Shown one piece after another: positions 504 to 33,135 of a stretch of DNA of 64,000 nucleotides (position 1 is its first letter; every line of letters begins with the position of its first letter). A program made the translations under genes and the position numbers. This DNA comes from Holophagaceae bacterium (lineage in GTDB: Bacteria; Acidobacteriota; Holophagae; Holophagales; Holophagaceae). The notes below the pieces were generated by a model. That model worked only from the letters and a program-made list of their open reading frames with translations. It did not search any database and was not told where the DNA came from. The stretch lies in contig JALRCU010000041.1 in assembly GCA_023257195.1 (NCBI GenBank), positions 62,001 through 126,000 of the forward strand. The letters are read 5' to 3'.

Positions 504-760
504 CACTTGTTTTGAGGAAATGAACTCTTGGCGTTCAGTCGCTTTGATGTCTTGAATAGTTCCCAAAAGGCGCTCGCAATGCCCCACCCTAAACCTATCC
601 ATTGCCCTAAGACCGGGCGCCCAAACCATCCCCCAATCCATTTTCCTAAAAAGAAACCCAAGGTAATGGCAATGGGAAAGACGAAGGCGATCGAGCTCAG
701 ATCGCTCCAAAGGGCGCGCTCGTGAGGACCTGAATTCTTTGGTTTTGGATCAACTTTCAT
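503..760 (-). CDS. atpZ: AtpZ/AtpQ-type F0 accessory protein
   Basis: An 85-residue protein with a polar N-terminus and two hydrophobic segments separated by a glycine-rich turn (GKWIGGWFGRP). This is the layout of the small AtpZ-type proteins (ATPase_gene1 family) found at the head of F-ATPase operons, proposed to help ion supply or F0 assembly. Its ATG overlaps the nuoN stop (ATGA) and its own stop overlaps the atpI start (TGATG). This ties complex I and ATP synthase genes into one apparent transcription unit. Confidence 0.7.
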   Translation of the reverse strand: MKVDPKPKNSGPHERALWSDLSSIAFVFPIAITLGFFLGKWIGGWFGRPVLGQWIGLGWGIASAFWELFKTSKRLNAKSSFPQNK

Positions 761-2241
761 AATTTAATTTTATCAACGATGTCGATCAGCCATCCGCTAG
801 CTGACACACCAAGCAAGACCATGAGTGCACAGACGCTCACCAACACGCCGGTCATGCGATCCATCTTAAGAGAATCTTTACCCGTCGACGATCTAAAGTA
901 CATTTGATTGATTACACCCAAATAGTAGTAAGCACTGACGGCACTCGTGAGTACCGCAATAACCGTGAGAACGACAAAACCTCGCTCAAGGGCCATTTTG
1001 AAAAGGATAAATTTACTAAAGAATCCGATAAGAGGAGGGATACCCGCTAAGCTGAGAAGAAAAAGCATCATGGCAAAAGCTAACCATGGATTACGTTGCG
1101 ATAAACCCCGAAAGTCGTCGATTCGTTCGCCTTCGCCCTTCCCTTGGAGAAAGGTAATGATGGCAAATGCACCAAAATTCATAAAGAGATAGGCAAAGAT
1201 GTAGAGCCAAAGAGATTGAACGCCTGAAAAGCTTCTGATTGAAAGATTTGGATCATTAGAAAGAATAGCGAGCATCATATAGCCTACATGTGCGATAGAG
1301 GAATACGCCAACATGCGCTTCATGGATTGCTGACGTAGAGCTGCCACGTTTCCAAGGATCATACTGGCAGCAGCCATATACTCCATGCCGAAGGTCCATA
1401 CATTAGGAATATTATGAAAAGCTACCCCAAAGACTTTAGCAAAAGCAAAAATTGCCGCCGCTTTGGGCGCACTCGCCATGAACGCGGTGATCGGAGTGGG
1501 CGCCCCATCGTACACATCCGGCGTCCACATGTGAAAGGGGACCACCGCAACCTTAAACGCCATGCCCACGAGAACCATTAAAACACCTAGGGTCACCATG
1601 GTTCCTCGGGCATCCATCGCGGCCACCAAGGCCGTGGAAAGTCCCTCGAAGTTCGTAGTCGTGCCCCCGGTAGCACCATAAAGCAAACTGATACCGTAGA
1701 TCATAATGCCGCTAGAAAAAGCACCGAGCAGAAAATATTTCACACCAGCCTCAATACCCCGTTCTTGATCACGAAAATAGCCTACTAATACGTAAATGGG
1801 GAGTGCCATCAACTCGATAGAAAAGTAAAGCGTCACTAAGTCGGTAGCACCGCATAGTAATAACATTCCTGATAAGGTGAAGAGCAATAGCGTATAAAAC
1901 TCCACGGTATGCTCATTCATGAGATCCAAGAGTTTCTTCGATAAGACTACGGTTGCCAACGTGGCAACAGTACAAATCAACTGAAAGGCTTGCGTCATTG
2001 TGTCGATACGGAACATGTTCGAGAATCCGGATCGATGAGGCGTAACAACAACAAGGTAAAGAGTAATGCCAAGAATGATTTGAGTAAAAAGAGACCAGCG
2101 ACGCTTTTGATCCCGAGGAATCAGAAGATCCCCAGGCCACAACATAAGACTTGCTATCCCGATTAAGAAAAAGGGGGCTTGAACAAGAGGCGCGTCTTGC
2201 CAAAGCGCGGTCCAGAGACTTTGGACAAAGCTAGGCATCAT
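757..2241 (-). CDS. nuoN: NADH-quinone oxidoreductase subunit N
   Basis: A 494-residue polytopic membrane protein, one of the three antiporter-like proton-pumping subunits (L, M, N) of complex I. The proton-antiporter core is visible: a membrane Glu/Lys pair region (LYFSIELMALPIYVLVGYF), the HMWTPDVYDGAPTPITAFM stretch, and a later KRMLAYSSIAHVGYMML segment typical of this family. Length is normal for NuoN. It begins with tandem ATG codons overlapping the nuoM stop (TAATG) and ends overlapping atpZ (ATGA). It is the last nuo gene of the operon. Confidence 0.96.
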   Translation of the reverse strand: MMPSFVQSLWTALWQDAPLVQAPFFLIGIASLMLWPGDLLIPRDQKRRWSLFTQIILGITLYLVVVTPHRSGFSNMFRIDTMTQAFQLICTVATLATVVLSKKLLDLMNEHTVEFYTLLLFTLSGMLLLCGATDLVTLYFSIELMALPIYVLVGYFRDQERGIEAGVKYFLLGAFSSGIMIYGISLLYGATGGTTTNFEGLSTALVAAMDARGTMVTLGVLMVLVGMAFKVAVVPFHMWTPDVYDGAPTPITAFMASAPKAAAIFAFAKVFGVAFHNIPNVWTFGMEYMAAASMILGNVAALRQQSMKRMLAYSSIAHVGYMMLAILSNDPNLSIRSFSGVQSLWLYIFAYLFMNFGAFAIITFLQGKGEGERIDDFRGLSQRNPWLAFAMMLFLLSLAGIPPLIGFFSKFILFKMALERGFVVLTVIAVLTSAVSAYYYLGVINQMYFRSSTGKDSLKMDRMTGVLVSVCALMVLLGVSASGWLIDIVDKIKL

Positions 2242-3869
2242 TACTTCTCCTCAGAAGTTTCAGTAAGGTTAGAGTTTTCATCTGTTCCGGGGGCAACCAT
2301 ACCTTGCATGCCCTCTCGCTTGGCTTTTTCTTGATCCGAACTGGCGGAGGGGGCCAAGTAATAATCTGGATTAACCTGTCGAACTAATTTAGCTACAGGA
2401 CGATCCATAATTTCCATTAACGGACGCGGGTAGAGACCAATCCAAACCGCCATGATCACCAAGGGGGCAAAGACCACCATTTCACGGGGAGTCAAATCGG
2501 TCATCTTTCGGTTGACATCCGAAATCGGGCCAAACATCACCCGTTGGAACATCCATAACATGTATGCAGCACCTAAGATAATTCCGGTGGTGGCCACTAC
2601 GGCTGCCCATGGGAAAGCCTGGAAAGATCCTTGCAGAATGATGAGCTCACCAATAAATCCATTGAGGAGGGGTAAGCCAATAGAACTCATCGTCATGATC
2701 ATAAAAATGGTGGAGTAAATAGGCATGGTTTCAGAAAGACCACCGAAATCAGCAATCATACGCGTATGACGACGATCATAAACAACGGCCACCGCAAGGA
2801 ACAAGCCGGGAGTACTAATACCGTGATTGATCATTTGGAACAATGCTCCCTTAAATCCATAGGGATTCAGAGCAAAGATACCGAGCATACACATACCCAA
2901 ATGACTGACCGAACTATAAGCCACTAATTTCTTCATGTCTTTCTGAATCATGGCCACGAGCGCACCATAAATGATCCCAATGAGGGACATCGCAATGAAC
3001 CAGGGCATGAGATCCTTGACCGCGGTAGGGAAAATGGGTAGCAAGAAGCGAACAAAACCGTAGGTTCCCATTTTCAGCAAAATACCGGCAAGAATAACCG
3101 ATCCTGCCGTCGGCGCTTGAACATGCGCATCGGGTAACCAAGTATGAAAGGGGAACATGGGAACTTTAATTGCAAACGCCACAAAGAACGCCAACGCAAG
3201 CAAGGTTTGATAAGTCTTAGTTTGCTGAGCAATAACTGGAGCCATTGCTTGAAAAGATTCTAGAGAAAAATCAAGCGTTCCATGCGTCTTCGCTTGCAAG
3301 AAGTAAATCGCCAGCACGGCTACCAGTAAAAGAACAGAGCCCGCAAGGGTGTATAAAAACAATTTAATCGCTGCGTAGAGTTTTTGAGGTCCTCCCCAAA
3401 TACCAATCAAAAAATACATCGGGACGAGCATGACTTCCCAAAAAACATAAAAAAGGAACATATCTTGCGTGATGAAAACACCAAGCATTGCGGTCTGGAG
3501 CACCAACAGCCAAATATAATACTCCTTCAAGCGTTCGGTGATCGCTTCCCAAGAACACAAAATAGCGATCGGCCCTATGAAGGTCGTGAGAAGCCATAAC
3601 AATAAACTGATTCCATCCATGCCCACGCTAAACCGAACTCCTAATGAAGGTATCCATGACCAACTTTGAGCCCATTGAACAGCATCGCTCGTTCGATCGT
3701 AGGCAAAGAAAAAAGGAATGCTTAAGACAAAGCTCAAAACCGTCCCGATCAAAGCCCCTTTCTTAATGATCCCGCTTCGATCTTTAGGCACAAAGAGTAA
3801 AACCAGAGCCGCGGCAAAGGGAATAAAGGTCGCAGTCAGCATGAGGAGCGTATTGGCGAAGGAACTCAT
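2241..3869 (-). CDS. nuoM: NADH-quinone oxidoreductase subunit M
   Basis: A 542-residue antiporter-like membrane subunit of complex I. Recognisable NuoM features include VFWEVMLVPMYFLIGIWGG, MFPFHTWLPDAHVQAPTAGS and KDMKKLVAYSSVSHLGMCML, which carry the conserved Glu, Lys and His residues of the proton path. About 14 hydrophobic helices are followed by a hydrophilic tail of roughly 45 residues rich in Ser, Glu and Lys after the last helix; this tail is longer than in most NuoM proteins. The gene sits 21 bases downstream of nuoL and overlaps nuoN by one base. Confidence 0.97.
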   Translation of the reverse strand: MSSFANTLLMLTATFIPFAAALVLLFVPKDRSGIIKKGALIGTVLSFVLSIPFFFAYDRTSDAVQWAQSWSWIPSLGVRFSVGMDGISLLLWLLTTFIGPIAILCSWEAITERLKEYYIWLLVLQTAMLGVFITQDMFLFYVFWEVMLVPMYFLIGIWGGPQKLYAAIKLFLYTLAGSVLLLVAVLAIYFLQAKTHGTLDFSLESFQAMAPVIAQQTKTYQTLLALAFFVAFAIKVPMFPFHTWLPDAHVQAPTAGSVILAGILLKMGTYGFVRFLLPIFPTAVKDLMPWFIAMSLIGIIYGALVAMIQKDMKKLVAYSSVSHLGMCMLGIFALNPYGFKGALFQMINHGISTPGLFLAVAVVYDRRHTRMIADFGGLSETMPIYSTIFMIMTMSSIGLPLLNGFIGELIILQGSFQAFPWAAVVATTGIILGAAYMLWMFQRVMFGPISDVNRKMTDLTPREMVVFAPLVIMAVWIGLYPRPLMEIMDRPVAKLVRQVNPDYYLAPSASSDQEKAKREGMQGMVAPGTDENSNLTETSEEK

Positions 3870-3890: not shown

Positions 3891-6104
3891 TTAACCAAGG
3901 AACTTAAATAACATTAGAAGAACGAAGCCCAAAAGTGTGACAAAGGCGTAGTTTTGAACTCGACCCGATTGGAAAGCCTTGAAGAGAGAGGCGAATTGTT
4001 GCAGCAGCCAAGCGACAAAATTGACGAGACCATCCACGATATAAGTGTCAAACCAGTAACTAGCCCGAGCAAATAAAAGGGTTGCGCGGGCAGCTCCATT
4101 GACCATACCGTCTACCACCCAGGTATCAAAAGACCATAACTGACCGGCGAGTCGTTTCGTAGGTGTGATCAGGAGCGCTTCATAAAACTCATCAATATAA
4201 AATCGAGCATGGACCCACTCAAAAAGATTGGGATAATTTTTAACGAAAGTCTTTGCGCGAGACCAAGAAGGATCGGCTGCATAAAACCAATAAGCTAAGG
4301 CCATAGCACCGGGAGCCCAAATAACGGTCGCCCAAATCATTAGTGCATATTCAACTTTAGAAACCACCTCGACGCCTTCCGTAGCGGCTCCAACCTGATA
4401 GAGGATGGGAGTAAGCCATTCGGAGAAATAGGCGTGTCCTAGAAAATGGAGTGCATGCGGCACATTAAGAAAACCACTCCCGACCGCGAGTAGAGCCAGA
4501 ATAAAAACCGGTACCCACATGTTCCAAGGCACCTCATGGGGAACATGAGTACCTACATGATGAGCATCATGGCCATGCGTATCTCCCGGGACAGTGAGAT
4601 GATACGGATCCTCCCCTCCCCCACGATAGTTTCCAAGGAAGGTCATACAGATCAAACGCATCATATAAAATGCTGTGAAAAAAGCTGCGACCATACCCAT
4701 CAGCCAAGCCGAGAGATAGAGAGTGGAACCCTCGTAGGTTCCACCTTCGTACCAGCCCTCGAAAACCTTCCAAAGGATTTCGTCTTTAGAGAAGAAGCCA
4801 CTGAAAGGGAAAATCCCGGCAATTGCAAACGTGGATAGGAGCATGGACCAAAACGTCCATGGCATGTACTTTCTAAGGCCGCCCATATTTCTCATATCCT
4901 GTTCGTGGTGACAAGCCATGATCACAGAGCCGGAACCTAAAAATAGACAAGCCTTAAAGAAAGCGTGGGTAAAGACATGGAACATCCCAGCTGTAAAAGC
5001 CCCCGCACCCATTCCCATGAACATAAATCCGAGTTGAGAAACGGTACTGTAAGCTAACACCTTCTTAATGTCATATTGAGCGAGACCCATGGAAGCGGCT
5101 AGGAGGGCGGTGAGGGCTCCGATAAATAAAATTAGATGAAGTGCAGCGGGCGCATTCACAAAGATAAAATTGAGTCGCGTAATCATATAGAGTCCCGAGG
5201 TAACCATCGTCGCCGCGTGAATCAAGGCGGAGACTGGGGTAGGACCTGCCATGGCATCAGGGAGCCAAACATATAAAGGGATTTGAGCAGACTTGCCCAT
5301 GGCCCCTACAAATAAACAACCCCCAATCAAGTTCATCCAGAAAGTGGGAGCGGCGGTATGGCCAAAGAGGGTGATGGAGGGCAACGCCATAAGGGATCTT
5401 GCCGAACCCATTAGCGTATCGTAATCCAAAGATCCAAAAATCATGAAGATTAAGAAAAAGCCCAACATAAAACCAAAGTCACCAATCCGGTTGGTTACAA
5501 AGGCCTTTTTGGCTGCATCGCCTGCATAGGTTTTATTGAAATAGAAACCAATCAGCAAATAAGAACAAAGTCCGACGCCTTCCCACCCCAAAAACATCAT
5601 GAGAATGTTGGAACCTAATACTAAGTTCAACATGCTGAATACAAAAAGATTGAGATAAGCCATAAATCGGTAATACCTAAAATCTTTTTGCTCTTCTTCC
5701 ATGTAGCCTGTACTAAAAAGATGAATGAGGAAGCCTGCTCCTGTAACTAAGAGAGCCATCGCTGCGCTTAAGACGTCGAACTTGTAGGCCCATTCTACGG
5801 TCGCGAACGTAAGGCGCTGACCTGCGATCTGAGCTGCTCCGACATCAAACCACGTCCAGAGGGATTGATGGAGGCTTCGCGAAGATTCAGGGAGTTGCAA
5901 GAGGTACAAGAAATAAAATACGGATAATAAAAAAGACCCTGCTACTGAACCGAGCGCAATACCGTTGACCCACTGATTATTTCGAAGACGGCGACCGGTA
6001 AGGCCATTAATCAGAAACCCAAAAAGCGGAAGAAAGGGGATCAGCCATAAATACGATACGGGTTGCGATGCTGAAATTAGTGGAATGAGAGTCGATTCGT
6101 TCAT
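3891..6104 (-). CDS. nuoL: NADH-quinone oxidoreductase subunit L
   Basis: A 737-residue proton-pumping subunit with the long C-terminal lateral helix that braces NuoM and NuoN. Conserved landmarks are FLGWEGVGLCSYLLIGFYF, YVWLPDAMAGPTPVSALIH and KKVLAYSTVSQLGFMF. A His-rich cytoplasmic or periplasmic loop (HGHDAHHVGTHVPHE) interrupts the C-terminal half. Near the end, two similar amphipathic motifs occur in tandem (FDTWVVDGMVNG and FDTYIVDGLVNF), which explains part of the extra length over the roughly 610 residues of the E. coli protein. The ATG at 6104 follows the nuoK stop closely. Confidence 0.97.
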   Translation of the reverse strand: MNESTLIPLISASQPVSYLWLIPFLPLFGFLINGLTGRRLRNNQWVNGIALGSVAGSFLLSVFYFLYLLQLPESSRSLHQSLWTWFDVGAAQIAGQRLTFATVEWAYKFDVLSAAMALLVTGAGFLIHLFSTGYMEEEQKDFRYYRFMAYLNLFVFSMLNLVLGSNILMMFLGWEGVGLCSYLLIGFYFNKTYAGDAAKKAFVTNRIGDFGFMLGFFLIFMIFGSLDYDTLMGSARSLMALPSITLFGHTAAPTFWMNLIGGCLFVGAMGKSAQIPLYVWLPDAMAGPTPVSALIHAATMVTSGLYMITRLNFIFVNAPAALHLILFIGALTALLAASMGLAQYDIKKVLAYSTVSQLGFMFMGMGAGAFTAGMFHVFTHAFFKACLFLGSGSVIMACHHEQDMRNMGGLRKYMPWTFWSMLLSTFAIAGIFPFSGFFSKDEILWKVFEGWYEGGTYEGSTLYLSAWLMGMVAAFFTAFYMMRLICMTFLGNYRGGGEDPYHLTVPGDTHGHDAHHVGTHVPHEVPWNMWVPVFILALLAVGSGFLNVPHALHFLGHAYFSEWLTPILYQVGAATEGVEVVSKVEYALMIWATVIWAPGAMALAYWFYAADPSWSRAKTFVKNYPNLFEWVHARFYIDEFYEALLITPTKRLAGQLWSFDTWVVDGMVNGAARATLLFARASYWFDTYIVDGLVNFVAWLLQQFASLFKAFQSGRVQNYAFVTLLGFVLLMLFKFLG

Positions 6105-6110
6105 AAAGGC

Positions 6111-6413
6111 TTATCCGTTCAATAAATTAATATCATCGGCTTGGACTGTATCTTTGCGTCGATACAACGCGACGGCTAAGGCGAGACCGACGGCGACCTC
6201 AGCCGCGGCAAAGCCCATGACCAAAAGGGCAAAAGCTTGGCCATCTACGGTGCCGCTTTGTCGGGCAAATGCAATGAGATTTAAATTCGCTGCGTTGAGC
6301 ATGAGTTCTATCGACATCAAAATAATTAAAAGATTACGTCGAATCAAAACGCCTGCGACTCCGATGAAGAACATCAAAGAAGAGATAAAAAGGACTAGAT
6401 TCAGGGAAATCAC
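6111..6413 (-). CDS. nuoK: NADH-quinone oxidoreductase subunit K
   Basis: A 100-residue, three-helix complex I subunit. The conserved segments IGVAGVLIRRNLLIILMSIE and MLNAANLNLIAF hold the two membrane glutamates of the proton route. The start is GTG at 6413, and it overlaps the nuoJ stop as GTGA. The length matches the family exactly. It lies between nuoJ and nuoL in the canonical order. Confidence 0.96.
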   Translation of the reverse strand: MISLNLVLFISSLMFFIGVAGVLIRRNLLIILMSIELMLNAANLNLIAFARQSGTVDGQAFALLVMGFAAAEVAVGLALAVALYRRKDTVQADDINLLNG

Positions 6414-6964
6414 GATACACGCTCCGACTTCGCAAGTACCAAGGCGCCCACAAGCGCCACCAAGAGAATAACGGAGAGGATTTCTAGGGGTAATAAAAAC
6501 CCTGCAAATAAGCCACGGCTAACCATTTGTGCATTTTGAGCACTGACTGAGAGACCCTCGGCTAGACCGGAAGAGAGCGATAGGGCCACTGGAGTTGCGG
6601 CATCAAAGAGATTGGACTTCATCGTATAGGCAAAGATACCTAGTGCAATTAATACAAGAGGGAAAGACCATTTGATTTGGGTGGTAAACAAACTCTTTTC
6701 TTTGTATTTAGTCAATTCGACTAACATCACCACAAATAAGAAAAGGACAACAATACCGCCCGCATAAACCAAGAGTTGGGCCATGCCTAAAAATTCTGCA
6801 CTTAGACATAAAAAGCAAGCGGCCACCATGATCATAGAAAATAGAAAACCGAGAACACTGTGAACCGCAGAGGTAGACAGAATCATTACCGCTGCACCCG
6901 CGCAGGCCAAAAGACCAAAGACGAGGAAAAGGTTGTGACCGATACTCGTAAAAAGGGCATTCAT
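6410..6964 (-). CDS. nuoJ: NADH-quinone oxidoreductase subunit J
   Basis: A 184-residue membrane subunit with five predicted helices. The NuoJ signature is visible as FLGMAQLLVYAGGIVVLFLFVVML, split here as FLGMAQLLVYAGG followed by IVVLFLFVVMLVEL; this contains the pi-bulge helix that couples quinone reduction to proton transfer. It starts at ATG 6964, ten bases after nuoI, and overlaps the GTG start of nuoK. Confidence 0.95.
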   Translation of the reverse strand: MNALFTSIGHNLFLVFGLLACAGAAVMILSTSAVHSVLGFLFSMIMVAACFLCLSAEFLGMAQLLVYAGGIVVLFLFVVMLVELTKYKEKSLFTTQIKWSFPLVLIALGIFAYTMKSNLFDAATPVALSLSSGLAEGLSVSAQNAQMVSRGLFAGFLLPLEILSVILLVALVGALVLAKSERVS

Positions 6965-6973
6965 GAGTGGATC

Positions 6974-7504
6974 CTACTGGGTGTAATCAGGGGCATCGGG
7001 AGAAGCCGATGAAGAAATAGAGTACTGACCGACGGGAGATACACGAAACATATCTTGGTACTCTCCGTGCATGCCAATTGAAAAATCCTCACGATTATAA
7101 GCTGCGAGTTCAAATTGATGATTCAGGATAATGGAATCAAAGCCACAACTTTCAACACAAAATTCACAGAAAATACAGCGTTCCATCTCAAAGTCATAAC
7201 GAGTAGGATAAGGAGTTTTACGTCCTTCTTTTTTGCCTTTATTAATCGTGATCACCTGTGTCGGACATATTTTTTCACAGGCCAAGCAACACACGCACTT
7301 AATTTCTCCCTGTTCATCCCGAAGCATTTGGAGTCGGCCCCGATAGCGAGGAGCAATCGAGATAGGGGTCTCGGGATACTCCACCGTAATATGAACGTGC
7401 TTCTTGGATCGATTCGCTTGTAAAAAATTTCGACCGAAATATTTTCCGGTTAATTTCATCCCTGAGGCGATGTCGATGGGTAGGAGTTTTTTCAAAATAG
7501 ACAT
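6974..7504 (-). CDS. nuoI: NADH-quinone oxidoreductase subunit I (two [4Fe-4S] clusters)
   Basis: A 176-residue peripheral subunit relaying electrons through clusters N6a and N6b. The first motif CVCCLACEKICP (Cys 70, 73, 76, 80) is a normal C-x2-C-x2-C-x3-C-P. The second, CIFCEFCVESCG (Cys 110, 113, 116, 120), keeps all four cysteines but has Gly where Pro is usual. An upstream in-frame TTG would add six residues and overlap nuoH. I chose ATG 7504 because AGGA precedes it at good spacing and it lies just after the nuoH stop. It lies between nuoH and nuoJ. Confidence 0.95.
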   Translation of the reverse strand: MSILKKLLPIDIASGMKLTGKYFGRNFLQANRSKKHVHITVEYPETPISIAPRYRGRLQMLRDEQGEIKCVCCLACEKICPTQVITINKGKKEGRKTPYPTRYDFEMERCIFCEFCVESCGFDSIILNHQFELAAYNREDFSIGMHGEYQDMFRVSPVGQYSISSSASPDAPDYTQ

Positions 7505-7511
7505 AGAAATC

Positions 7512-8690
7512 CTAAAAGGCAAATCGGATCGCAGCCGCGATGAGAAGATTGATAAGGGTGACGGGGATTAACCATTTCCAACCTACACTCATCAATTGAT
7601 CGTAGCGATAACGGGGGAGAGTGGCTCGAACCCAAAGAAAGACAAAGAGTAAAAAGAAAACTTTTCCAAAGAAGAATAGTAAACTTGGTTCGGCGAGAAA
7701 AGGAATGCCGTCGGGCACGAATCGCTGCAGGCCGAAGGGTAGTAAGTAGTGTCCGCCCAAAAAGAAACCGGCTGCGATGGCTGATACCGCCATCATATTG
7801 GCGTATTCCGCTAACATGAACCAAGCAAATTTCATGCCGGTATATTCCGTATGAAATCCCGACACTAGTTCCGTTTCTGCTTCAGCTAAATCAAACGGAA
7901 CACGATTGGTCTCAGCAAAACCACAGGTGAGATAGAAAAAGAAGCCAAAGAAGAGTGGGACCGCTGCAATTAATGGCATCTGAACCACATCACCGGCCGC
8001 CGTTACCGTAGGGACGCCTGCTAGGTAAACGGAGAGTTCTCTAAAATTTAAAGTACCCGAAAGAACAACGGCGGCTAATAACGAGAGGCTCAGAGGAATT
8101 TCATAACTAATAATTTGTGCCGCACTTCGAAGTCCACCTAGAAGGGGATATTTTGAATTAGAAGCCCAACCGCCTAAGACAATGCCGTAAACACCGATAG
8201 ATCCTACGGCCATAATGTAAAGCAACCCGACATTGATATCGGTTAAGAATCCCGTGAAAGGCAAGCCGCCTACAATTGGAAATTGATCCGGAAAGACAAA
8301 TAACGTTCCGGGATAAAAGCAAATGACTGCGAAGGTTGCAAAGGCCGGAATCATACAGACGACCGGCGCAATCACAAAAACAAAACGGTCGGCTCTATCC
8401 GGCACAATATCTTCCTTGAGCAGTAATTTCAGTCCGTCTGCAGCAAAGACTGGCAATCCACGAAAGAAAGATAAGATGGGAATTCGGCCCATTGCCCATG
8501 AGAGTTTATTGATGCCTGCGGCAAAACCTCGAATACCTCCGGCTTGGCGCGTCGCCCCCAATCGGACTTGGATATAGCCAATCACTTTACGTTCAGCAAA
8601 GGTCATCACGGGAACAATCAAAAGAATTATAGAAATGAGTACGGTAATTTGAATGACCGCCATTACCACTTGCTGCACAGGTGTCATCAT
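7512..8690 (-). CDS. nuoH: NADH-quinone oxidoreductase subunit H
   Basis: A 392-residue membrane subunit that forms the quinone-binding chamber at the membrane/hydrophilic-arm interface. Conserved features are the [13 protein letters not shown] segment after the first helix, [12 protein letters not shown], and the acidic quinone-channel loop [20 protein letters not shown] followed by [12 protein letters not shown]. At 392 residues it is somewhat longer than the usual 320-350, with the extra length in loops between helices. It begins with two ATG codons, and the first overlaps the nuoD stop (ATGA). Confidence 0.97.
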
Positions 8691-9787
8691 CGGTCCACCT
8701 CTCCGAGTACCACATCAAGCGTTCCGATGGCGGCGATGACATCAGCAAGCAAGCGACCTTCGGTCATTTGGGGTAAGGCTTGAAGATTGACAAAGGAGGG
8801 GCCGCGCACATGAAAACGATAAGGGTTTTGAGAGCCCTTCTCTCCGACTAAGTAATAACCTAATTCCCCTTTGGGGGCTTCGATCGGATGGTAGATTTCA
8901 TTGACCTCAGATTTTAAAACCTTAGGAATCTTTGCCATGACATTACCTTCTGGAAGTCCATCGATACATTGTTGAATGATCCGATGGCTTTGACGAAACT
9001 CTTCGAGGCGAACAAGATAACGAGCATAGGTATCCGCTTCAGTACGCGTCGGTACATCGAAATCCATTTCGGCGTAAGCGGCATAAGGGAAAGCTTTTCG
9101 AACATCATAGTTGACACCCGCAGCTCGAAGAACGGGGCCCGTAACACCGAAAGCGATACATTGATCAGCTTGAATGGGAGCAATCCCAATCGTTCTTTTT
9201 TTCCAGATTCGATTTTCAGTCAACAACGTCTCATATTCATCAATGCAGTTCAAGAATCGATCTTGAAAAGCTTGAACTTGCTTGATAAAGCCAGGGGGGA
9301 TGTCTTCGCGAAGGCCCCCGATGCGAAAGGCGGTAGTGGTAAGACGAGCACCACAGAAAGACTCGAAGCAATTAAGGATTTCTTCGCGCTCTCGAAACGC
9401 ATATAAAAATACGGTCATGGCACCAATATCAAGGGCATGCGTCCCGAGCCAAAGCAGATGAGAGCTGATGCGATTGAGTTCAGTCATCATGGTACGAATA
9501 TAGTGGGCTCGACGAGGGACTTGGATGCCAAACAATTTTTCGACGGACTCAGCCCATCCAAGGTTGTTACTTACCGAGGCGACATAATCCATACGATCGG
9601 TCCAAACTTGACCTTGAAAAAAGGTCTTATTCTCACAGATTTTTTCAACCCCACGATGGAGGTAGCCAATCACGGGAGTGCATTTCACAATTGTTTCACC
9701 GTCGAGACGAAGTTTGACGCGAAGCACCCCGTGTGTGGAAGGGTGCTGAGGTCCCAGATTAATTTCCAATTCCTCGTTTTTAAACAC
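8687..9787 (-). CDS. nuoD: NADH-quinone oxidoreductase subunit D (49 kDa type)
   Basis: A 366-residue hydrophilic subunit that shapes the quinone pocket together with NuoB. The N-terminus has the diagnostic [14 protein letters not shown] with the quinone-contact His, then [10 protein letters not shown] and DRMDYV; the C-terminus ends in DVVLGEVDR, a normal NuoD ending. The start is GTG at 9787, preceded by AGGAG at eight bases. NuoD is a separate gene, not fused to NuoC, although its neighbour NuoC has an unusual N-terminus. Confidence 0.96.
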
Positions 9788-9798
9788 CGATCAAACTC

Positions 9799-11349
9799 CT
9801 AGTTAGCTTCTGGTTTTTTTAGATTAATACTTAGGTTCCCGGCTTTTTCAAGGGACAAGCGCATCAAAACGCCCGATCGATCTTCTCGAAAATCAATTTC
9901 ACGTTGACCAAGACCCAGCGTTGGATATTCTTTTCGCAACGGGAATCCCTCCCAATCCTCAGGACAGAGAATTCTAGTTAAATCGGGATGATCCTTAAAG
10001 CGAATACCGAACATATCAAAGATTTCTCGTTCAAGCCAGTTCGCACCGGGATAAACTGCGACAGCACTTGTCACGTCGTAACCCTCGGGTACTAAAATAC
10101 GTAACCGTAATCGACGTTGTCTTGAAAGACTTGTCAAATGATAGACAATAGAGAATTTAAATGCATCGGCAGCGGGATAATGGGTTGCGGTTTCATCGGC
10201 GAGCATCTCAAATTTGAGAGCAGGGTCCTCTTTACATAAGGCTAAAGCTTCAAGAATGAAATCCGGATTGACTTGGCAAACTAATTCCCCGGACTGCTGA
10301 AAAATTTCTTCCACTTTCGAACCTAATTTCTGCTGCAGATAAATGAGTTCGGGGGCGTCCGCTAAAATCGGGGTGGGTGCTACGACATCGTTTTCATCTT
10401 TTTTGGCCGCAGGTCGAACGGGAGCCTTGGGGGCTTCTTTGCCTTCCGCGAGCGCCTTGGCTTTATTGGTTTCATAATCAGCCAATTGTTTTTGCCACTT
10501 GGCTTCATCCGCTATTTTTTGATTTTCTTGGTCGGCTAAATAAATCTTAAGGCTAGGCAGAGGAACGGTTTTGGGCATCACAACCGTTCGATTGGGTGCT
10601 GCTGCAATATTCCACACAAAAGACTGACTGGGTTCTGGACTGTGACCGTGCGCTGCATCTATTTTCTTTTCAATTTTAGGAGCATCGCCGAGAACACCGT
10701 ATTTGATTACGTCGACCGGACAACCCGCAGCAGCCGAGATAATTTTTTCAATGAGAGATTCTCCTAGCAGCTCTTTGATTTTGGATTTTTCAATACGATT
10801 TTCATTTTCTTTTCCATCTAGCCGAACCTCGGCTTTGATATGACAACTATCGGCAGTGACGTGAAAGACCTCGGGGCATTCGGCTTCACAAGCGTTGCAA
10901 ACAATACACCCTTCATCAATCCATACTTCTGTGATGCGTGGCTTAGTAGCTACGGAAGCATTGGTTTGAGGCAAGGGAGTGTCAATCGCAGTCGAAGTAG
11001 ATTCAGGTTCGGTGGGGGCTACTGTGGGAGCTACTGCGGGGGCTGCTACTTGTACGACGACATCGACCCTAGGGGCTTCAACCGGAACTTCGGAGACTAC
11101 TTGTTCGTACTGAATGACATTGACGGGACAAGCCACTGCAGCGGCAATAATACTACTTTCTAGTGAGGATTGAAGCGGGGTTTGTAAGGCAGATTTTGAA
11201 GAACGATTTTCATCCTCTTGTCCATCGACCCGTGCATCAGATTTGATGTGGCAACTATCGGCAGTGACATGAAAGACATCGGGGCATTCGGCTTCGCAGG
11301 CATTGCAAACAATGCAACCTTCTTCGATCCAAACCTTGGTGATAGACAT
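9799..11349 (-). CDS. nuoC: NuoC fused to two N-terminal [4Fe-4S] ferredoxin domains
   Basis: A 516-residue protein; ordinary NuoC is about 150-220. Residues 1-85 form ferredoxin domain 1 (Cys 12, 15, 18, 22 and 74; motif CIVCNACEAECP, then CPV). Residues 86-138 are an Ala/Pro/Val linker. Residues 139-217 are ferredoxin domain 2 (Cys 148, 151, 154, 158 and 210). A second linker with a Lys/Glu/Ala helical stretch covers about 218-330, and NuoC proper covers about 331-500, with NWLEREIFDMFGI, DHPDLTRIL and GFPLRKEYPTLG. Each ferredoxin also has a Cys in DSCHIK (33, 169), so a cluster of four Cys plus a spare pair is possible, as in Desulfovibrio gigas ferredoxin II. The gene sits where nuoC belongs, between nuoB and nuoD. 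A role as an added electron entry arm is inference. Confidence 0.93.
   Translation of the reverse strand: MSITKVWIEEGCIVCNACEAECPDVFHVTADSCHIKSDARVDGQEDENRSSKSALQTPLQSSLESSIIAAAVACPVNVIQYEQVVSEVPVEAPRVDVVVQVAAPAVAPTVAPTEPESTSTAIDTPLPQTNASVATKPRITEVWIDEGCIVCNACEAECPEVFHVTADSCHIKAEVRLDGKENENRIEKSKIKELLGESLIEKIISAAAGCPVDVIKYGVLGDAPKIEKKIDAAHGHSPEPSQSFVWNIAAAPNRTVVMPKTVPLPSLKIYLADQENQKIADEAKWQKQLADYETNKAKALAEGKEAPKAPVRPAAKKDENDVVAPTPILADAPELIYLQQKLGSKVEEIFQQSGELVCQVNPDFILEALALCKEDPALKFEMLADETATHYPAADAFKFSIVYHLTSLSRQRRLRLRILVPEGYDVTSAVAVYPGANWLEREIFDMFGIRFKDHPDLTRILCPEDWEGFPLRKEYPTLGLGQREIDFREDRSGVLMRLSLEKAGNLSINLKKPEAN
10795..11343 (-). repeat. Internal tandem duplication encoding the two ferredoxin domains of NuoC
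   Basis: The DNA at about 11203-11343 reappears at about 10795-10935, offset by 408 bases (136 codons, in frame). By eye most bases match over the central ~100 bases, including a run of identical sequence around the cysteine motif. The copies encode nearly the same 30-residue peptide (CIVCNACEAECP and VFHVTADSCHIK in both). Similarity fades in the intervening linker. This points to a domain duplication within the gene rather than two independent fusions. Confidence 0.85.
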
Positions 11350-11352
11350 CGA

Positions 11353-11868
11353 TTACCCTACAGACTCGAAGATTTCAGCGTAGCGATCAGACATGCTGGA
11401 CGTCATAATCTTGTCTTGTAACTTTAAGAAGCCGTAAATCAAACTTTCTGGACGGGGAGGACATCCCGGAATAAATACGTCAACCGGAATAATTTTATCG
11501 ACGCCCTGAATGGTGTGATAACTATCGAAAGGACCCCCCGCGGTGGCGCAAGAGCCCATCGCAATGACCCATTTGGGTTCAGGCATTTGGTCGTAAAGTT
11601 TCTTAATTACTGGAGCCATCTTGTAGGTGACCGTGCCCGCTACAATCATCAAGTCTGATTGACGAGGAGTGGCTCTAAAAATACCTGCACCGAATCGATC
11701 AAAATCAAAACGACTTGCTCCTGCAGCCATCATTTCGATCGCACAACAAGCAAGCCCGAAGGTCATGGGCCATACCGATGAAGCGCGGGCCCAATTGACG
11801 ACCTTTTCCACTTTGGTGGTGATCAAGATGTGTTCGAGAGATGAGGGCTGATTTAAAATCACGGACAT
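11353..11868 (-). CDS. nuoB: NADH-quinone oxidoreductase subunit B (N2 cluster)
   Basis: A 171-residue subunit carrying the terminal [4Fe-4S] cluster N2 that reduces quinone. The tandem cysteines Cys41-Cys42 ([11 protein letters not shown]), Cys107 (MGSCATAGG) and Cys136 (PGCPPRPE) give the complete ligand set. The TPRQSD segment is also typical. It lies three bases after nuoA's stop, and the ATG at 11868 is the only reasonable start. Confidence 0.97.
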
Positions 11869-11872
11869 GAAC

Positions 11873-12226
11873 TTACTCCCAATTCAGGGCGCCCTTAGAC
11901 CAAATATAGGCATACCCAATTAATAGCAAAAACAGAAAAAATCCCATTTCGACTAAACCAAAAATCCACAGCTCTTTTAATTGAAGAGCCCAAGGTAGAA
12001 GAAAAACTGTTTCAACATCAAAAATTAAAAATAAAACCGCAACGAGATAATATCTGACACTAAACTTTTCTCGCGCATCCGTGGTGGCCGTGATTCCACA
12101 TTCGTACGTGGAGTGTTTGGAGGTACTGTAGAAGCTGGGGCGAATGAAACGAGAAAGACTCCATACCAAAGCAGGTAGTGTTAGGGATATGGCAATAAGC
12201 AACAAAATAGGTGCATAGCCTTGCAT
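11873..12226 (-). CDS. nuoA: NADH-quinone oxidoreductase subunit A
   Basis: A 117-residue, three-helix membrane subunit and first gene of the nuo operon. The family signature [20 protein letters not shown] and the following [15 protein letters not shown] are both present. The ATG at 12226 is preceded by GGAG. The 129-bp region to the divergent pilB-like gene must hold the operon promoter; a TTGACC and a TATAAG exist there on the minus strand, but their spacing (23 bases) is too long to claim a promoter. Confidence 0.96.
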
Positions 12227-27275: not shown

Positions 27276-28310
27276 TTATGCAGGGCGCTGAAATCGGTAA
27301 TGAGACACGATCCACTCATTACCATCGCTGTATTTCCATAACTCCGCGCAAGACATAAAAAATATTCTCCATCGTGCTAACTGAAGTTCCGCTTCAGGAA
27401 GACTCATGGAAGTCGCAAATAAATTTTTTAAACTATCGAAGTTAGCATCGAGATTTTGAAGCCATGCCTCTGAAGTATAGGCATAGTGGAGGCCGCCAAC
27501 ACGCCAATGATCTTCGAGTTTGAGTGAATCTTGGAATCTCAGGAGATAGTGATCACTTGGCATCATTCCACCGGTAAAGAAATATTGGGCCATCCAATCC
27601 GTCTCATCCTTTACTTCGTAGGGATAGGTCAAGTCCCGATGGGTAAAGATATGTACAAATAATTTACCTTGCGGCTTAAGCCACTTGGAAATCTTAGCTA
27701 ACAGCGATCGATGATTTCGCATATGTTCAAACATTTCGACAGAAACGACGCGATCAAATGTTTCTTCGATCTCAAAGGCGTTCATGTCTTGAGTGATAAC
27801 CGTAAGATTGGAGAGACCTCTTTGAAGGGCTTGGCCTTCGATATAGAGACGCTGATCTTTTGAATTAGAGACTGCCGTAATTTGTGACTTTGGAAAATGT
27901 TCAGCCATCCATAGAGAAAGAGAGCCCCACCCACAACCCAACTCAAGAATCTTTTGTCCATTCGCTAAATCTGCGCGCTCGCAAGTTCGCTGTAGCATCG
28001 CTCGTTCCGCCGATTCTAGACTTTGCTGGGGACTATCAAACCAACAGCATGAATATTTGAGATGAGGCCCCAGCACTTTTTGGAAGAAGGCAGGGGGCAC
28101 CTCATAATGCTGATCATTTGCCTCTTGCGTATTGATGGCAATGGGTCCTTGAGACCAATCAACGAGGCGTGCTTGAAAGCGAGTATGAACAGCCTCCACT
28201 CCGCCGGCATACTCGTCTTTAAGACGAAGGCGGATCAGCCTCTTGATTTGAGAACGAATTAACCCATCGGGTATCCAACCTCGGCGAAGTAATTGATCGG
28301 TCAAGTTCAT
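27276..28310 (-). CDS. SAM-dependent methyltransferase, short cyclopropane-fatty-acid-synthase type
   Basis: A 344-residue Cfa-family methyltransferase lacking the usual N-terminal lipid domain. HYEVPPAFFQKVLGPHLKYSCCWF, the SAM motif ILELGCGWGSLSLWMAE and the SVEMFEHM motif identify the family. It is more like the coclaurine N-methyltransferase-like branch than classical Cfa. An upstream extension of the frame reaches 28529, but the ATG at 28310 overlaps the DUF1295 stop (ATGA) and begins a normal N-terminus. Last gene of the lipid operon; the substrate is probably a membrane acyl chain. Confidence 0.88.
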   Translation of the reverse strand: MNLTDQLLRRGWIPDGLIRSQIKRLIRLRLKDEYAGGVEAVHTRFQARLVDWSQGPIAINTQEANDQHYEVPPAFFQKVLGPHLKYSCCWFDSPQQSLESAERAMLQRTCERADLANGQKILELGCGWGSLSLWMAEHFPKSQITAVSNSKDQRLYIEGQALQRGLSNLTVITQDMNAFEIEETFDRVVSVEMFEHMRNHRSLLAKISKWLKPQGKLFVHIFTHRDLTYPYEVKDETDWMAQYFFTGGMMPSDHYLLRFQDSLKLEDHWRVGGLHYAYTSEAWLQNLDANFDSLKNLFATSMSLPEAELQLARWRIFFMSCAELWKYSDGNEWIVSHYRFQRPA

Positions 28311-29098
28311 GAAGAGATCCCTTTCTTTGGAAACCAAGGAATAAACATAGAAGTCTCTTCTTGGTAGCGTCGATAGTCCTCTGGTCGGCTTCGCAAACTT
28401 TGAGCTTCCGTCGCGGGAATTCCCGTCACGCGAAGAAGGAAATAAAGCATGAGAGCCGGGCAGATTAAAGACCAATAACCTCCGGGAGATGGAATGGCCA
28501 TCAGGGCAAAAGCCACCCAGATCAACCATTCAAAAAAATAATTGGGGTGCCTCGAGTAGCGCCACAGCCCTTGTCGGCAGGTTTGACCCTTGTGATCTAT
28601 ATTTGATTTAAAATGGGCCAATTGCCGATCCGCCACGGCCTCGCCTACCATCGAGACCACCCAAACGCTCAGGGCTAACCAGTGAGTCCACTGAAGATCT
28701 TCTCGGGAATCTTGGACCATCACAAGGAAAGGAATGGAAAGGATGACATCTAATAGTGCTTGAACCTGAAAGAAAAGAAAAAATTTGAGGGGTAAATTCG
28801 TTTTCCAGTTCCGCTTAATCTCACCGTATCGTCCATCTTCTTTTTCATTTTTTACACGATTAAAAAGGTACGTCCCGAGACGTGCGCTCCAGAGACCCCC
28901 CATGATTCCCGCCAAGAGTCGTGAAGTGAGGCTTCCGCTACCAAAGCAGGCATAAAAAACTACGATGAGCCCTAAGCCATATGCCCAGCCCACATCGACC
29001 CAAGCGGCATTGTCGGTTGCTCGATAATACAGCCAGAGTCCAAACTGCAAGCTGGAAACTATCAGGGTTCCATAAAGAATCAGTTCGAATGTGTTCAT
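28307..29098 (-). CDS. DUF1295 membrane protein (steroid 5-alpha-reductase-like)
   Basis: A 263-residue polytopic membrane protein. The C-terminal half has GLWRYSRHPNYFFEWLIWVA, the NADPH-binding hallmark shared with steroid 5-alpha reductases and isoprenylcysteine methyltransferases, and the protein ends near PEDYRRYQEETSMFIPWFPK, typical of DUF1295. It is likely a reductase acting on a lipid double bond; that is inference. The ATG at 29098 overlaps the DUF2062 stop. Longer readings of the frame only shadow that gene. Confidence 0.88.
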   Translation of the reverse strand: MNTFELILYGTLIVSSLQFGLWLYYRATDNAAWVDVGWAYGLGLIVVFYACFGSGSLTSRLLAGIMGGLWSARLGTYLFNRVKNEKEDGRYGEIKRNWKTNLPLKFFLFFQVQALLDVILSIPFLVMVQDSREDLQWTHWLALSVWVVSMVGEAVADRQLAHFKSNIDHKGQTCRQGLWRYSRHPNYFFEWLIWVAFALMAIPSPGGYWSLICPALMLYFLLRVTGIPATEAQSLRSRPEDYRRYQEETSMFIPWFPKKGISS

Positions 29099-29568
29099 GG
29101 CGTCGTTTCCATGGAGTGTTTGATGCGCTGAAAAAGAAAGCTGAGGATCAGGCCAAGAATAATGACCAAAGGGATGGCTACCAACACCCAAACAACTCCT
29201 GCGTGCCAAAAACTAGTCCAATACGTTTCGAGCGTAGTAAAAGGCGAGAATGATCCAGATTTAATTTCCTGAATGATTATAGGAACAACATGCGGTTGAT
29301 CAAATAATTTTTCACCGGCATAAATGAAGAAGAAAAGAAAGGGGACTTGTAGGGGAGATAAAGCCAGATGAGCAATCTGAATTGCAGGATGATTAAGCCG
29401 AAAAAGGAAGCCAGCCGCAATACAAACAAGGGTCGAAGTACCAACGAGAGGACTGGTACCAATAGCAAGACCGGCTGCCACACTCCATGCCAATTTACTT
29501 GGCGTGGTCCCCTGTTTTAAAAGATTCACAAGGGGATCTATGACCTTTTTTTTCAGCCACTTATTCAT
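29095..29568 (-). CDS. DUF2062 membrane protein
   Basis: A 157-residue protein with an amphipathic start, then LVNLLKQGTTPSKLAWSVAAGLAIGTSPLVGT, split here as LLKQGTTPSKLAWSVAAG plus LAIGTSPLVG, the hallmark of DUF2062, and three or four helices. Its function is unknown; family members often sit beside glycosyltransferase or lipid genes. It overlaps both neighbours by ATGA. Confidence 0.85.
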   Translation of the reverse strand: MNKWLKKKVIDPLVNLLKQGTTPSKLAWSVAAGLAIGTSPLVGTSTLVCIAAGFLFRLNHPAIQIAHLALSPLQVPFLFFFIYAGEKLFDQPHVVPIIIQEIKSGSFSPFTTLETYWTSFWHAGVVWVLVAIPLVIILGLILSFLFQRIKHSMETTP

Positions 29569-29888
29569 GAAGATTGCCGACGAAAAAGGTCTGGGAGGCT
29601 CTGGGCGTTATGAATCGCTATCAAAACATAAATCGCCATCGCAATATTGCCTAGAAGAAGAATTGCAACTAACCAACTTATGCTTGAAATGGACCAACCT
29701 TCGCGATAAAGAATCCAAAGCCAAAAGAAGACAAAAGCAAAATAGGTATCGTATAACGTTGCAACCCACCAGGGTTCGTCAGGAAAATACTTAATTACAT
29801 CAAAAATAGATTGCTGAAGCGAGGCCCAAGTCGTCACGATAAGCATCGCAATTAAAACTGCCCACGCCCATAATTTAAGATATTTCAT
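29565..29888 (-). CDS. DUF1475-like membrane protein
   Basis: A 107-residue protein with three hydrophobic helices and the stretch WWVATLYDTYFAFVFFWLWI, which fits DUF1475, a family repeatedly found beside Cfa/DUF1365 genes. A TTG four codons upstream is an alternative start. The ATG at 29888 overlaps the Cfa stop by ATGA. Its role is unknown; the context suggests a membrane component of lipid modification. Confidence 0.75.
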   Translation of the reverse strand: MKYLKLWAWAVLIAMLIVTTWASLQQSIFDVIKYFPDEPWWVATLYDTYFAFVFFWLWILYREGWSISSISWLVAILLLGNIAMAIYVLIAIHNAQSLPDLFRRQSS

Positions 29889-31105
29889 GATCGACTCCAA
29901 GGTTCATGATTCACCCCTATTGCTTCAGGATGACCTAGTAGTAATTGTGAATCACCAATATACCTCTCTGCAAATGCTCCTGAACAATAAGCTAAATACC
30001 AATCCCACATTCGGATAAACTCATCGCTGTACCCTAAGGCGCGCACCCTATCAATCTCAGTCCAGAATCTTTGACGCCAAGCATCTAAGGTTCGATGATA
30101 GTGAGCACCAATATCCTCGTGATGCAAGATCCGGAGCGAACCTGTTCGACCGAGTGATTTAAATATCTCAGATAAAGAGGCTAGTTCTGCACCAGGAAAG
30201 ATATATTGCTGAATCCAATCAGTACCTTTGATATAGGTTTCCCACTGAGTTTCATTCATGGTGATGGTCTGGATTAAAGCCAAGCCACCCGTTTCCAAAT
30301 GTCGACTAATACAACTAAAGTAATCATCGTAATGTTTGAGGCCTACGGCCTCAAACATTTCAATCGAGACAATCTTGCTGTAGATCCCTTTTAATAATCG
30401 ATAGTCTTCAAAGCGAATATCGATGAGATGGCTTACCCCTTCCCTTTCAAATAGCGACTGTGCGTATTTAAATTGTTGTTGACTAATCGTCGTAGTCGTA
30501 ACGCGACATCCAACATGTTTTGCGGCATAAAGGGCGAAGCCCCCCCAGCCTGTGCCAATTTCGAGGATATGATCGCGAGAATTCAAAGAGAGTTTTTCAG
30601 CAATACGAGAAAACTTTTGAATTTGCGCAACCTCGAGGGAGTCACTCGATGACCGATAATATGCACAACTGTAAGCTAGGGTGGGGTCGAGCCACAACTG
30701 ATAGAAATCATTGCCTAAGTCATAGTGATGAGCAATATTGGATCGAGAACCCTGCAGATGATTGTCTCTAGAGAGATGGCGCAATCGATTGATCTTTTTT
30801 CCTAACCAGGACAAGAGGCCCCGATCTTTTGTCAGAGGGGTCATACCGCGAACTACGAGGCGTACCAAAGCGACGGGATCCGGTGAAGACCAATAGCCTT
30901 TCATATAGGCAAGGCCAAATCCCACTTCACCCTGAAATAGGCCGAGCCGATAAGTTCGTGCATCATGGATGATAACTATGGCCTTTAGAGAACTTTGAGG
31001 ATCCCCTAAAAAATACGTTTGATCGGCTGTTCGAAGTTCAAGGAACCCGCTCTCAATTTTTGAGAGCAGTCGAACGGTGAAATAACGAAGGAGCCGATTA
31101 ATCAT
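29885..31105 (-). CDS. Cyclopropane-fatty-acyl-phospholipid synthase-type methyltransferase
   Basis: A 406-residue Cfa-family enzyme with the N-terminal lipid-binding domain (GFGLAYMKGYWSSPDPVALV) and the catalytic domain: NIAHHYDLGNDFYQLWLDP, SAM motif LEIGTGWGGFALYAAK, SIEMFEAVGLKHYDDYF and the late WDWYLAYCSGAFAERYIGD. It transfers a methyl or methylene group from SAM to unsaturated acyl chains of phospholipids. This is the fuller of two Cfa paralogues in this operon. The neighbouring amine oxidase and DUF1365 genes are typical partners of this subgroup. Confidence 0.92.
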   Translation of the reverse strand: MINRLLRYFTVRLLSKIESGFLELRTADQTYFLGDPQSSLKAIVIIHDARTYRLGLFQGEVGFGLAYMKGYWSSPDPVALVRLVVRGMTPLTKDRGLLSWLGKKINRLRHLSRDNHLQGSRSNIAHHYDLGNDFYQLWLDPTLAYSCAYYRSSSDSLEVAQIQKFSRIAEKLSLNSRDHILEIGTGWGGFALYAAKHVGCRVTTTTISQQQFKYAQSLFEREGVSHLIDIRFEDYRLLKGIYSKIVSIEMFEAVGLKHYDDYFSCISRHLETGGLALIQTITMNETQWETYIKGTDWIQQYIFPGAELASLSEIFKSLGRTGSLRILHHEDIGAHYHRTLDAWRQRFWTEIDRVRALGYSDEFIRMWDWYLAYCSGAFAERYIGDSQLLLGHPEAIGVNHEPWSRS

Positions 31106-31866
31106 TTTTGGGATTCCATTTTTTTAGGATGCGTTTGAACGGGAACTCCCTTGAGCCACAAGCGAAAAGCCTGCCAATGTATGCCTATTATCACCCTTAG
31201 TGTCATCAAGGGAAACGCTAATAACGTTTGTCGAATCTGTTGGGCGTCCCATGGGTGGTGGACTAAATTAAGATCGACATCAAAAAAGCAATGATCTTGT
31301 TGGAATTCCTGGATATGGATCCCGAGGCGTTGGGCTGGGTCGTCAAAGGACCAGAGATACCGACAGTCCATCGGAATGAAGGGGGAAACGTGAAAAACCT
31401 TGGGAACTTCAAAGGTTCGACGAGGACCCTCCTGACGCATAGGAAATTCGCTCATCCAATAAAGATGACGCTCACCCCATGGCGTATTGTTTACTTCGGC
31501 AAGGATGTCCTTTAGTTCTCCTGCATCATTATAGAAATAAAAATAAGAAACAGGATTAAAGCAATACCCGAAATACCGCAAATGGGTTAAGAGGAAGATT
31601 TTTCCAGATCCAAGATCTATCCCTCGAGATTGCGCTTCAAGTTTGAGTCTTTCACGAAGAGGTAAGTGGGGGCTTCCTAAGTGATCCCGGTCATCATAGC
31701 TAGCCCAATTGAAACGATTATGGCTGACCCAGGGCGAAGCCTGCATGAGTTCTGATAAACGATCGATATCCAAGAAGGCCATAAAAATGGGATAAGTAAA
31801 TTCATGAGACTTAGGAGTAAATCGTCGATGACGAAGAGATCCACGATAAAGGCCTGAGGCTACCAT
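31102..31866 (-). CDS. DUF1365 protein
   Basis: A 254-residue protein with LYRGSLRHRRFTPKSHEFTY at the N-terminus and FLLTHLRYFGYCFNPVSYFY in the centre, both diagnostic of DUF1365. The biochemical function is not established; the family almost always neighbours an FAD amine oxidase and a Cfa enzyme. It overlaps the amine oxidase end by seven bases and the Cfa start by ATGA. Confidence 0.92.
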   Translation of the reverse strand: MVASGLYRGSLRHRRFTPKSHEFTYPIFMAFLDIDRLSELMQASPWVSHNRFNWASYDDRDHLGSPHLPLRERLKLEAQSRGIDLGSGKIFLLTHLRYFGYCFNPVSYFYFYNDAGELKDILAEVNNTPWGERHLYWMSEFPMRQEGPRRTFEVPKVFHVSPFIPMDCRYLWSFDDPAQRLGIHIQEFQQDHCFFDVDLNLVHHPWDAQQIRQTLLAFPLMTLRVIIGIHWQAFRLWLKGVPVQTHPKKMESQK

Positions 31867-33122: not shown

Positions 33123-33135
33123 AAAGATCGCTATC

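Follow-up and report, generated by a model that had tools for sequence, protein, structure and literature searches.

A NuoC subunit with two fused ferredoxin modules as the probable electron entry of a NuoEFG-less complex I in Holophagaceae

The 11-subunit form of complex I is widespread, and the accessible text of PMC11238625 describes its electron donor as an open question, a common donor protein having been sought and none found. Cyanobacterial NDH-1, which also lacks NuoEFG, receives electrons from ferredoxin at cluster N6a of NdhI, where lysines 86, 89 and 91 of NdhI contact the ferredoxin (PMC7021789). The fusions treated in a genomic survey of complex I include C-D and B-C-D and, in its accessible part, none with a ferredoxin (PMC12361115). 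The 11-subunit complex is thus already known; the new part of the locus presented here is a NuoC with fused ferredoxins, of which no earlier report was found in the literature outside subscription journals.

The window (the whole stretch of 64,000 nucleotides that was analysed) contains an operon on the minus strand, from 12226 down to 757, with the order nuoABCDHIJKLMN and the fused nuoC as its third gene. ATP synthase genes are located beyond nuoN. No nuoE, nuoF or nuoG was present among the operon genes, which were read from the window, nor was any gene seen there for NdhS, NdhV or NdhO, the subunits at the ferredoxin site of photosynthetic NDH-1. The features of the operon are the following:

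11873 to 12226, minus strand: nuoA (Oxidored_q4, E=1e-34)
11353 to 11868, minus strand: nuoB (NuoB subfamily, E=3.7e-76; N2 ligand motifs CC, SCAT and PGCP read in the sequence)
11101 to 11349, minus strand: ferredoxin module A, NuoC residues 1-83 (C12, C15, C18 and C74 predicted [4Fe-4S] ligands; C22 and C33 extra)
10939 to 11100, minus strand: linker 1, residues 84-137, Ala/Pro/Val-rich (gapped between congeners; pLDDT <50)
10687 to 10938, minus strand: ferredoxin module B, residues 138-221 (C148, C151, C154 and C210 predicted ligands; C158 and C169 extra; Fer4_13 match)
10606 to 10686, minus strand: linker 2, residues 222-248 (from congener comparison and the full-length model)
10345 to 10605, minus strand: conserved N-terminal extension of NuoC, residues 249-335 (found too in unfused Holophagaceae NuoC; helix predicted at 267-301)
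9799 to 10344, minus strand: NuoC core, residues 336-516, Complex1_30kDa, plus the stop codon (Pfam and PDB matches)
8687 to 9787, minus strand: nuoD (NuoD equivalog, E=9.5e-149, over the cut-off)
7512 to 8690, minus strand: nuoH (NADHdh match, G000:C10:69536-70651)
6974 to 7522, minus strand: nuoI (NuoI subfamily, E=5e-30; two C-x2-C-x2-C-x3-C motifs, N6a and N6b)
7217 to 7240, minus strand: basic loop KGKKEGRK of NuoI between both cluster motifs, proposed ferredoxin dock (alignment to NdhI)
6410 to 6964, minus strand: nuoJ (operon position and conservation)
6111 to 6413, minus strand: nuoK (operon position and conservation)
3891 to 6104, minus strand: nuoL (operon position and conservation)
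2241 to 3869, minus strand: nuoM (operon position and conservation)
757 to 2241, minus strand: nuoN, final gene of the EFG-less operon (operon position and conservation)

The first-pass annotation had placed a 516-residue ORF with a complete NuoC domain in the nuoC position, and this was borne out. The ORF (9799..11349, minus strand, a strand that the annotation had left unstated) started with ATG and was free of internal stops and frameshifts; many stops were present on the plus strand across the same interval. Complex1_30kDa (PF00329) was matched by Pfam with E=4.7e-38 over profile positions 2-120 of 124, and the core matched NuoC/NDUFS3 chains of the PDB with E values down to 8e-28. Directly 5' of the ATG lie an AGGG and the nuoB stop codon, which overlap one another, a spacing that appears as in a tightly packed operon. 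No in-frame internal start for an arm-less NuoC was found through codon 345 behind a 4-base substring of AGGAGG, a weak test, since the same scan missed the annotated start (AGGG is no such substring).

All the cysteine positions given for the two modules (12/15/18/22/33/74 and 148/151/154/158/169/210) proved correct, and the description of ferredoxin modules joined to NuoC by flexible Ala/Pro linkers agreed with the Fer4_13 matches and the lax linker described below. Module B matched Fer4_13 in Pfam with E=7e-10, and module A, searched alone, with E=1.7e-5, over the gathering score. The AlphaFold model of the full-length protein, built with 10 sequences, was poor (pLDDT 52.9), and the position of the arm is not readable from it.

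One important question was whether a frameshift or a mis-assembly had welded a ferredoxin gene to nuoC, as the first-pass annotation had itself considered. One relative (G030/L049) carries a stop inside nuoC, as would be expected if such errors occurred at this locus. However, the same two-module ORF was found between nuoB and nuoD in orthologues from other assemblies, with intact operons and identities of 88%, 81% and ~60%; the nearest, from LBMAG_Acidobacteria_hypo.bin1, was 88% identical over 516 residues. In addition, the free ferredoxin gene resides elsewhere, in a conserved housekeeping locus away from nuo, with a thiL-like gene on one side and a YqeY-like gene on the other. In a comparison of the window with congener L047, module A had a dN/dS of 0.032 and module B one of 0.045, against 0.026 in the NuoC core and 0.151 in the inter-module linker; these ratios are rough because they come from simple Nei-Gojobori counts and dS was near saturation in other pairs. 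Over three pairs, protein identity was 86-93% in the modules (90-93% in module B), 87-94% in the core and 32-57% in linker 1. Purifying selection acts on the two modules with much the same strength as on the NuoC core, and it is 3-6 times more relaxed in the linker. The orthologues and the selection acting over both modules rule out an artefact, whose probability we consider negligible.

An uninterrupted, in-frame ferredoxin-NuoC with two modules or one was present in 11 of the 77 Holophagaceae genomes (G000, G001, G002, G007, G011, G016, G019, G020, G023, G025 and G033; that of G020 begins at a contig end), belonging to 4 of the 11 genera. Further fused loci were one with an internal stop (G030) and at least two cut at contig ends (G012 and G028). 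In the former (L049, G030:C83:21330-23051) a single TAG precedes the last 71 residues of the fused nuoC, either as a pseudogene or through a sequencing error. All complete fused loci share the same operon, with EFG absent. The same EFG-less operon with an unfused NuoC was found in G005 (g4) and G010 (g9), and no fused module was detected in the g4 genomes examined; g4, the best-sampled genus, appears to be Geothrix, judging from many named Geothrix free-ferredoxin records. Among the matches listed from 396 Acidobacteriota genomes of 210 genera, no fusion was found outside Holophagaceae, and a motif-pattern scan for ferredoxins of the module type in ~85,000 species returned fused loci only in Acidobacteriota records fitting Holophagaceae.

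The double-ferredoxin NuoC pointed out in the first-pass annotation recurs in other genomes, and several of the homologues have one module or none. Fused NuoC as a whole does not map to one clade: the NuoC tree requires three or more gains or losses, and a single clade of fused NuoC was rejected (AU p=0.01). In the module tree, which is built from short sequences and is weak in places, the B modules from three genera clustered together (91/86) and the fused modules were largely separate from the free ones; the single module of L053 lies on a long branch and its place is unsure. We read this history as one old tandem fusion with later losses, several gains being the alternative. Outside Holophagaceae, L159 (G054) and L164 (G141), from other Acidobacteriota families, are EFG-less nuo clusters whose NuoC has a long Ala/Pro/Lys-rich N-terminal extension and no ferredoxin. 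Such Ala/Pro-rich, ferredoxin-free N-termini suggest that the tether may be older than its ferredoxin cargo.

Every one of the 21 fused and 69 free modules has cysteines C12, C15, C18 and C74. Because the patterns used to pick the module sequences already include C12-C18, the constancy of C74 and of the second copies says more than that of the rest. The profile of the module family aligned these four cysteines with those of the single-cluster ferredoxins of Bacillus thermoproteolyticus, Thermotoga maritima and Pyrococcus furiosus. AlphaFold (AF2) modelled module A on 32 sequences with a pLDDT of 95.9, and the best Foldseek matches of the module model were 2z8q, 1iqz and 1vjw (probability 1.00, TM-score on the target 0.6-0.8, E ~1e-3 to 2e-2). 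Since profile and fold both match single-cluster ferredoxins, one cluster per module is expected, not two, and each module would bind one [4Fe-4S] cluster. The CxxCxxC...CP ligands and the fold are common to the modules and to the known single-cluster [4Fe-4S] ferredoxins (Fer4_13; 1iqz, 1vjw, 2z8q); unlike those, the modules form a subfamily of ~80 residues with an insertion, and they occur in tandem and fused to NuoC.

The extra cysteines 22 and 33, to which the first-pass annotation had drawn attention, were considered as ligands of a further cluster and rejected. C22 is dispensable (Ser in 4 of the 21 fused modules and Thr in 5 of the 69 free ones; C33 was Ser once), the matching position is Ala in the ferredoxin of Bacillus thermoproteolyticus, and the profile is that of a single-cluster protein.

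The host genome (G000) is 1.2 Mb in size and 97% complete. Its single NuoF comes from a different contig, where a second set (nuoABCDEF) includes an ordinary NuoC of 162 aa; its one NuoG is encoded apart from that set, and a second nuoHIJKLMN is located elsewhere on the contig of the window. Together these point to an NADH-type complex I with scattered genes, separate from the EFG-less complex. The three parts lie on C46, C54 and C10 (L004, L161 and L155, respectively), the lone nuoG having a purH-like gene as its neighbour. A 2-oxoacid:acceptor oxidoreductase alpha/beta pair (KorAB-type), by family able to reduce ferredoxin, is also encoded in the genome. Elsewhere in the window, at 27276-34017 (minus strand), there are two cyclopropane-fatty-acid-synthase-like methyltransferases, an amine-oxidase-like FAD protein, a DUF1365-like protein and an acyl-CoA-desaturase-like protein, all named from sequence.

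Since the operon lacks nuoEFG and the sole NuoF belongs to another set, the fusion is assigned to an 11-subunit complex I without the N-module. The operon encodes A, B, C, D and H-N, no E, F or G, and the ligands of N6a, N6b and N2, so that by its sequence the fused NuoC would be a subunit of that complex; a 14-subunit NADH:quinone oxidoreductase, with NuoE, F and G encoded with the rest, is not what the fused-nuoC operon encodes. The cluster motifs of NuoI in the window are CVCCLACEKIC and CIFCEFCVESC. With both four-Cys motifs in NuoI and the N2 motifs in NuoB, the electron path from N6a to quinone appears to be present. The second motif of this NuoI (6974-7522, minus strand) closes with CG (CIFCEFCVESCGFD), the usual ending being CP. 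For the same reasons that assign the fusion to this complex, the ferredoxin arm is probably its only or main electron entry.

The arrangement bears on whether the modules could be docking adaptors that bring in a partner protein, either KorAB or the NuoEFG encoded by the second set, and not electron carriers. The fused modules are acidic, with charges of -4 to -11, the linkers are long, and most g1, g10 and g11 genomes have one NuoF, which could in principle serve both complexes. Against this, NuoEF is encoded beside its own NuoABCD and not with the fused set, and the four cluster ligands are invariant, a constraint that docking alone does not need. A purely adaptor role is hence considered unlikely.

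The reading that we favour, with a probability of about 0.68, is that the tethered two-ferredoxin arm acts as a built-in donor to the NuoEFG-less complex I, electrons passing through N6a/N6b and N2 to quinone. Each module, with its one predicted [4Fe-4S] cluster on a disordered tether at the N-terminus of NuoC, would take electrons from low-potential donors, either directly from the KorAB-type 2-oxoacid:ferredoxin oxidoreductase or via the free ferredoxin paralogue (84 aa, 67% identical to module A). A loaded module would then dock at the basic loop of NuoI, and the electrons would go along N6a-N6b-N2 to quinone, the membrane arm meanwhile pumping ions. Tethering would provide a high local concentration of donor, standing in for the missing NADH module. 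The reducer of the modules, transfer from A to B as against separate docking, and the direction of flow are points that we infer. Electron input through the arm, as suggested in the first-pass annotation, thus stands as the leading function, but not as an extra input to an NADH complex I, given that the operon lacks NuoE/F/G and NuoF belongs to the other set, a context that the annotation had overlooked.

Residues 25-148 of the window NuoI aligned to residues 17-135 of the cyanobacterial NdhI chain, and NdhI 86-91 falls within NuoI 94-104 (NKGKKEGRKTP), a placement taken from the alignment range that assumes that the chain index equals the residue number. This stretch was conserved in the type-1 NuoI of fused and of most unfused relatives, and the NADH-type NuoI of the same genome has AEEFSDLN in place of the basic loop. 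Unfused relatives share the basic loop, and some basic residues also occur at that position in the NuoI of E. coli, so it is only suggestive of docking. An extended chain spans ~3.6 Å per residue, and linker 2, with 27 residues, would have a contour of ~97 Å, an estimate and not a model, by which reach is unlikely to be limiting.

Two observations temper the favoured reading. The free ferredoxin persists beside the fused modules, which counts against a tethered donor, and the arm is dispensable, given that Geothrix and other relatives get by with an EFG-less operon that has no fused modules. The variation in module number (0, 1 or 2) while the rest of the operon is unchanged could be expected if the arm were an electron buffer or a redox/oxygen sensor that modulates the complex and not an entry route, but a complex without N-module needs an entry donor, and its closest known relative, NDH-1, takes ferredoxin electrons at N6a (PMC7021789); we regard this role as very improbable. 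The electron store proposed in the first-pass annotation is likewise the weaker idea, as a store leaves the single-module and zero-module versions unexplained.

The same anatomy serves both directions of electron flow. KorAB is reversible in principle, which would allow a mainly reverse mode in which quinol and the proton motive force reduce the tethered ferredoxins, and these in turn soluble ferredoxin or reductive 2-oxoacid enzymes; for Nitrospina, reverse electron transport through a modified complex I has been put forward as the way in which ferredoxin is reduced (PMC3578206). No sequence feature favours this direction, though, and we think it doubtful, if somewhat less so than the adaptor role. 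Net flow from ferredoxin to quinone, as in the built-in donor reading, is judged more likely.

The fusion of ferredoxin with a core subunit suggests which donor the 11-subunit complex I may use and on which side that donor would dock. With ferredoxin and NuoC on a single polypeptide, the ferredoxin idea becomes testable there, and the operon occurs with 0, 1 or 2 modules in sister lineages, cultured Geothrix included, which makes a natural series for comparison. The tethered ferredoxins probably feed the pump with electrons directly, pointing to ferredoxin as the missing fuel of such pumps. A broader claim, that in part of Holophagaceae the fusion made a self-contained ferredoxin:quinone oxidoreductase out of a complex I without N-module and is Rosetta-stone evidence for ferredoxin as the physiological donor of related 11-subunit complexes, with NuoC as the anchor, seems to us evenly balanced.

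Among the described systems, Desulfitobacterium hafniense DCB-2 has an operon of identical gene content and order, nuoEFG being absent there too, and the donors proposed in the accessible text are ferredoxin, PFOR and hydrogenase (PMC11238625); no fusion is described in that text, whereas here two ferredoxin modules are covalently joined to NuoC. The Campylobacter-type complex I, as cited in PMC11238625 and PMC12361115, is likewise fed by a non-NADH one-electron carrier, but this is a soluble flavodoxin, and the complex is not known to have a fused carrier. Nitrospina NUO-2, a variant of complex I for which ferredoxin has been proposed as a partner, also carries additional ferredoxin-like clusters, but these reside in NuoF2 and NuoG2, two subunits that the operon described here lacks (PMC3578206). 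In NqrF of Na+-NQR a flexibly tethered ferredoxin-like domain shuttles electrons within a respiratory ion pump, as proposed here, but the pump is unrelated, the domain is [2Fe-2S] and it is NADH-driven through FAD (PMC10643135). The photosynthetic NDH-1 and chloroplast NDH share with the present complex the absence of NuoEFG, and basic residues of NdhI touch ferredoxin; NDH-1 binds a soluble [2Fe-2S] ferredoxin transiently via NdhV/NdhO and NdhI/NdhH, whereas in the present complex the predicted [4Fe-4S]-type ferredoxins are tethered to the homologue of NdhJ, NuoC (PMC7021789).
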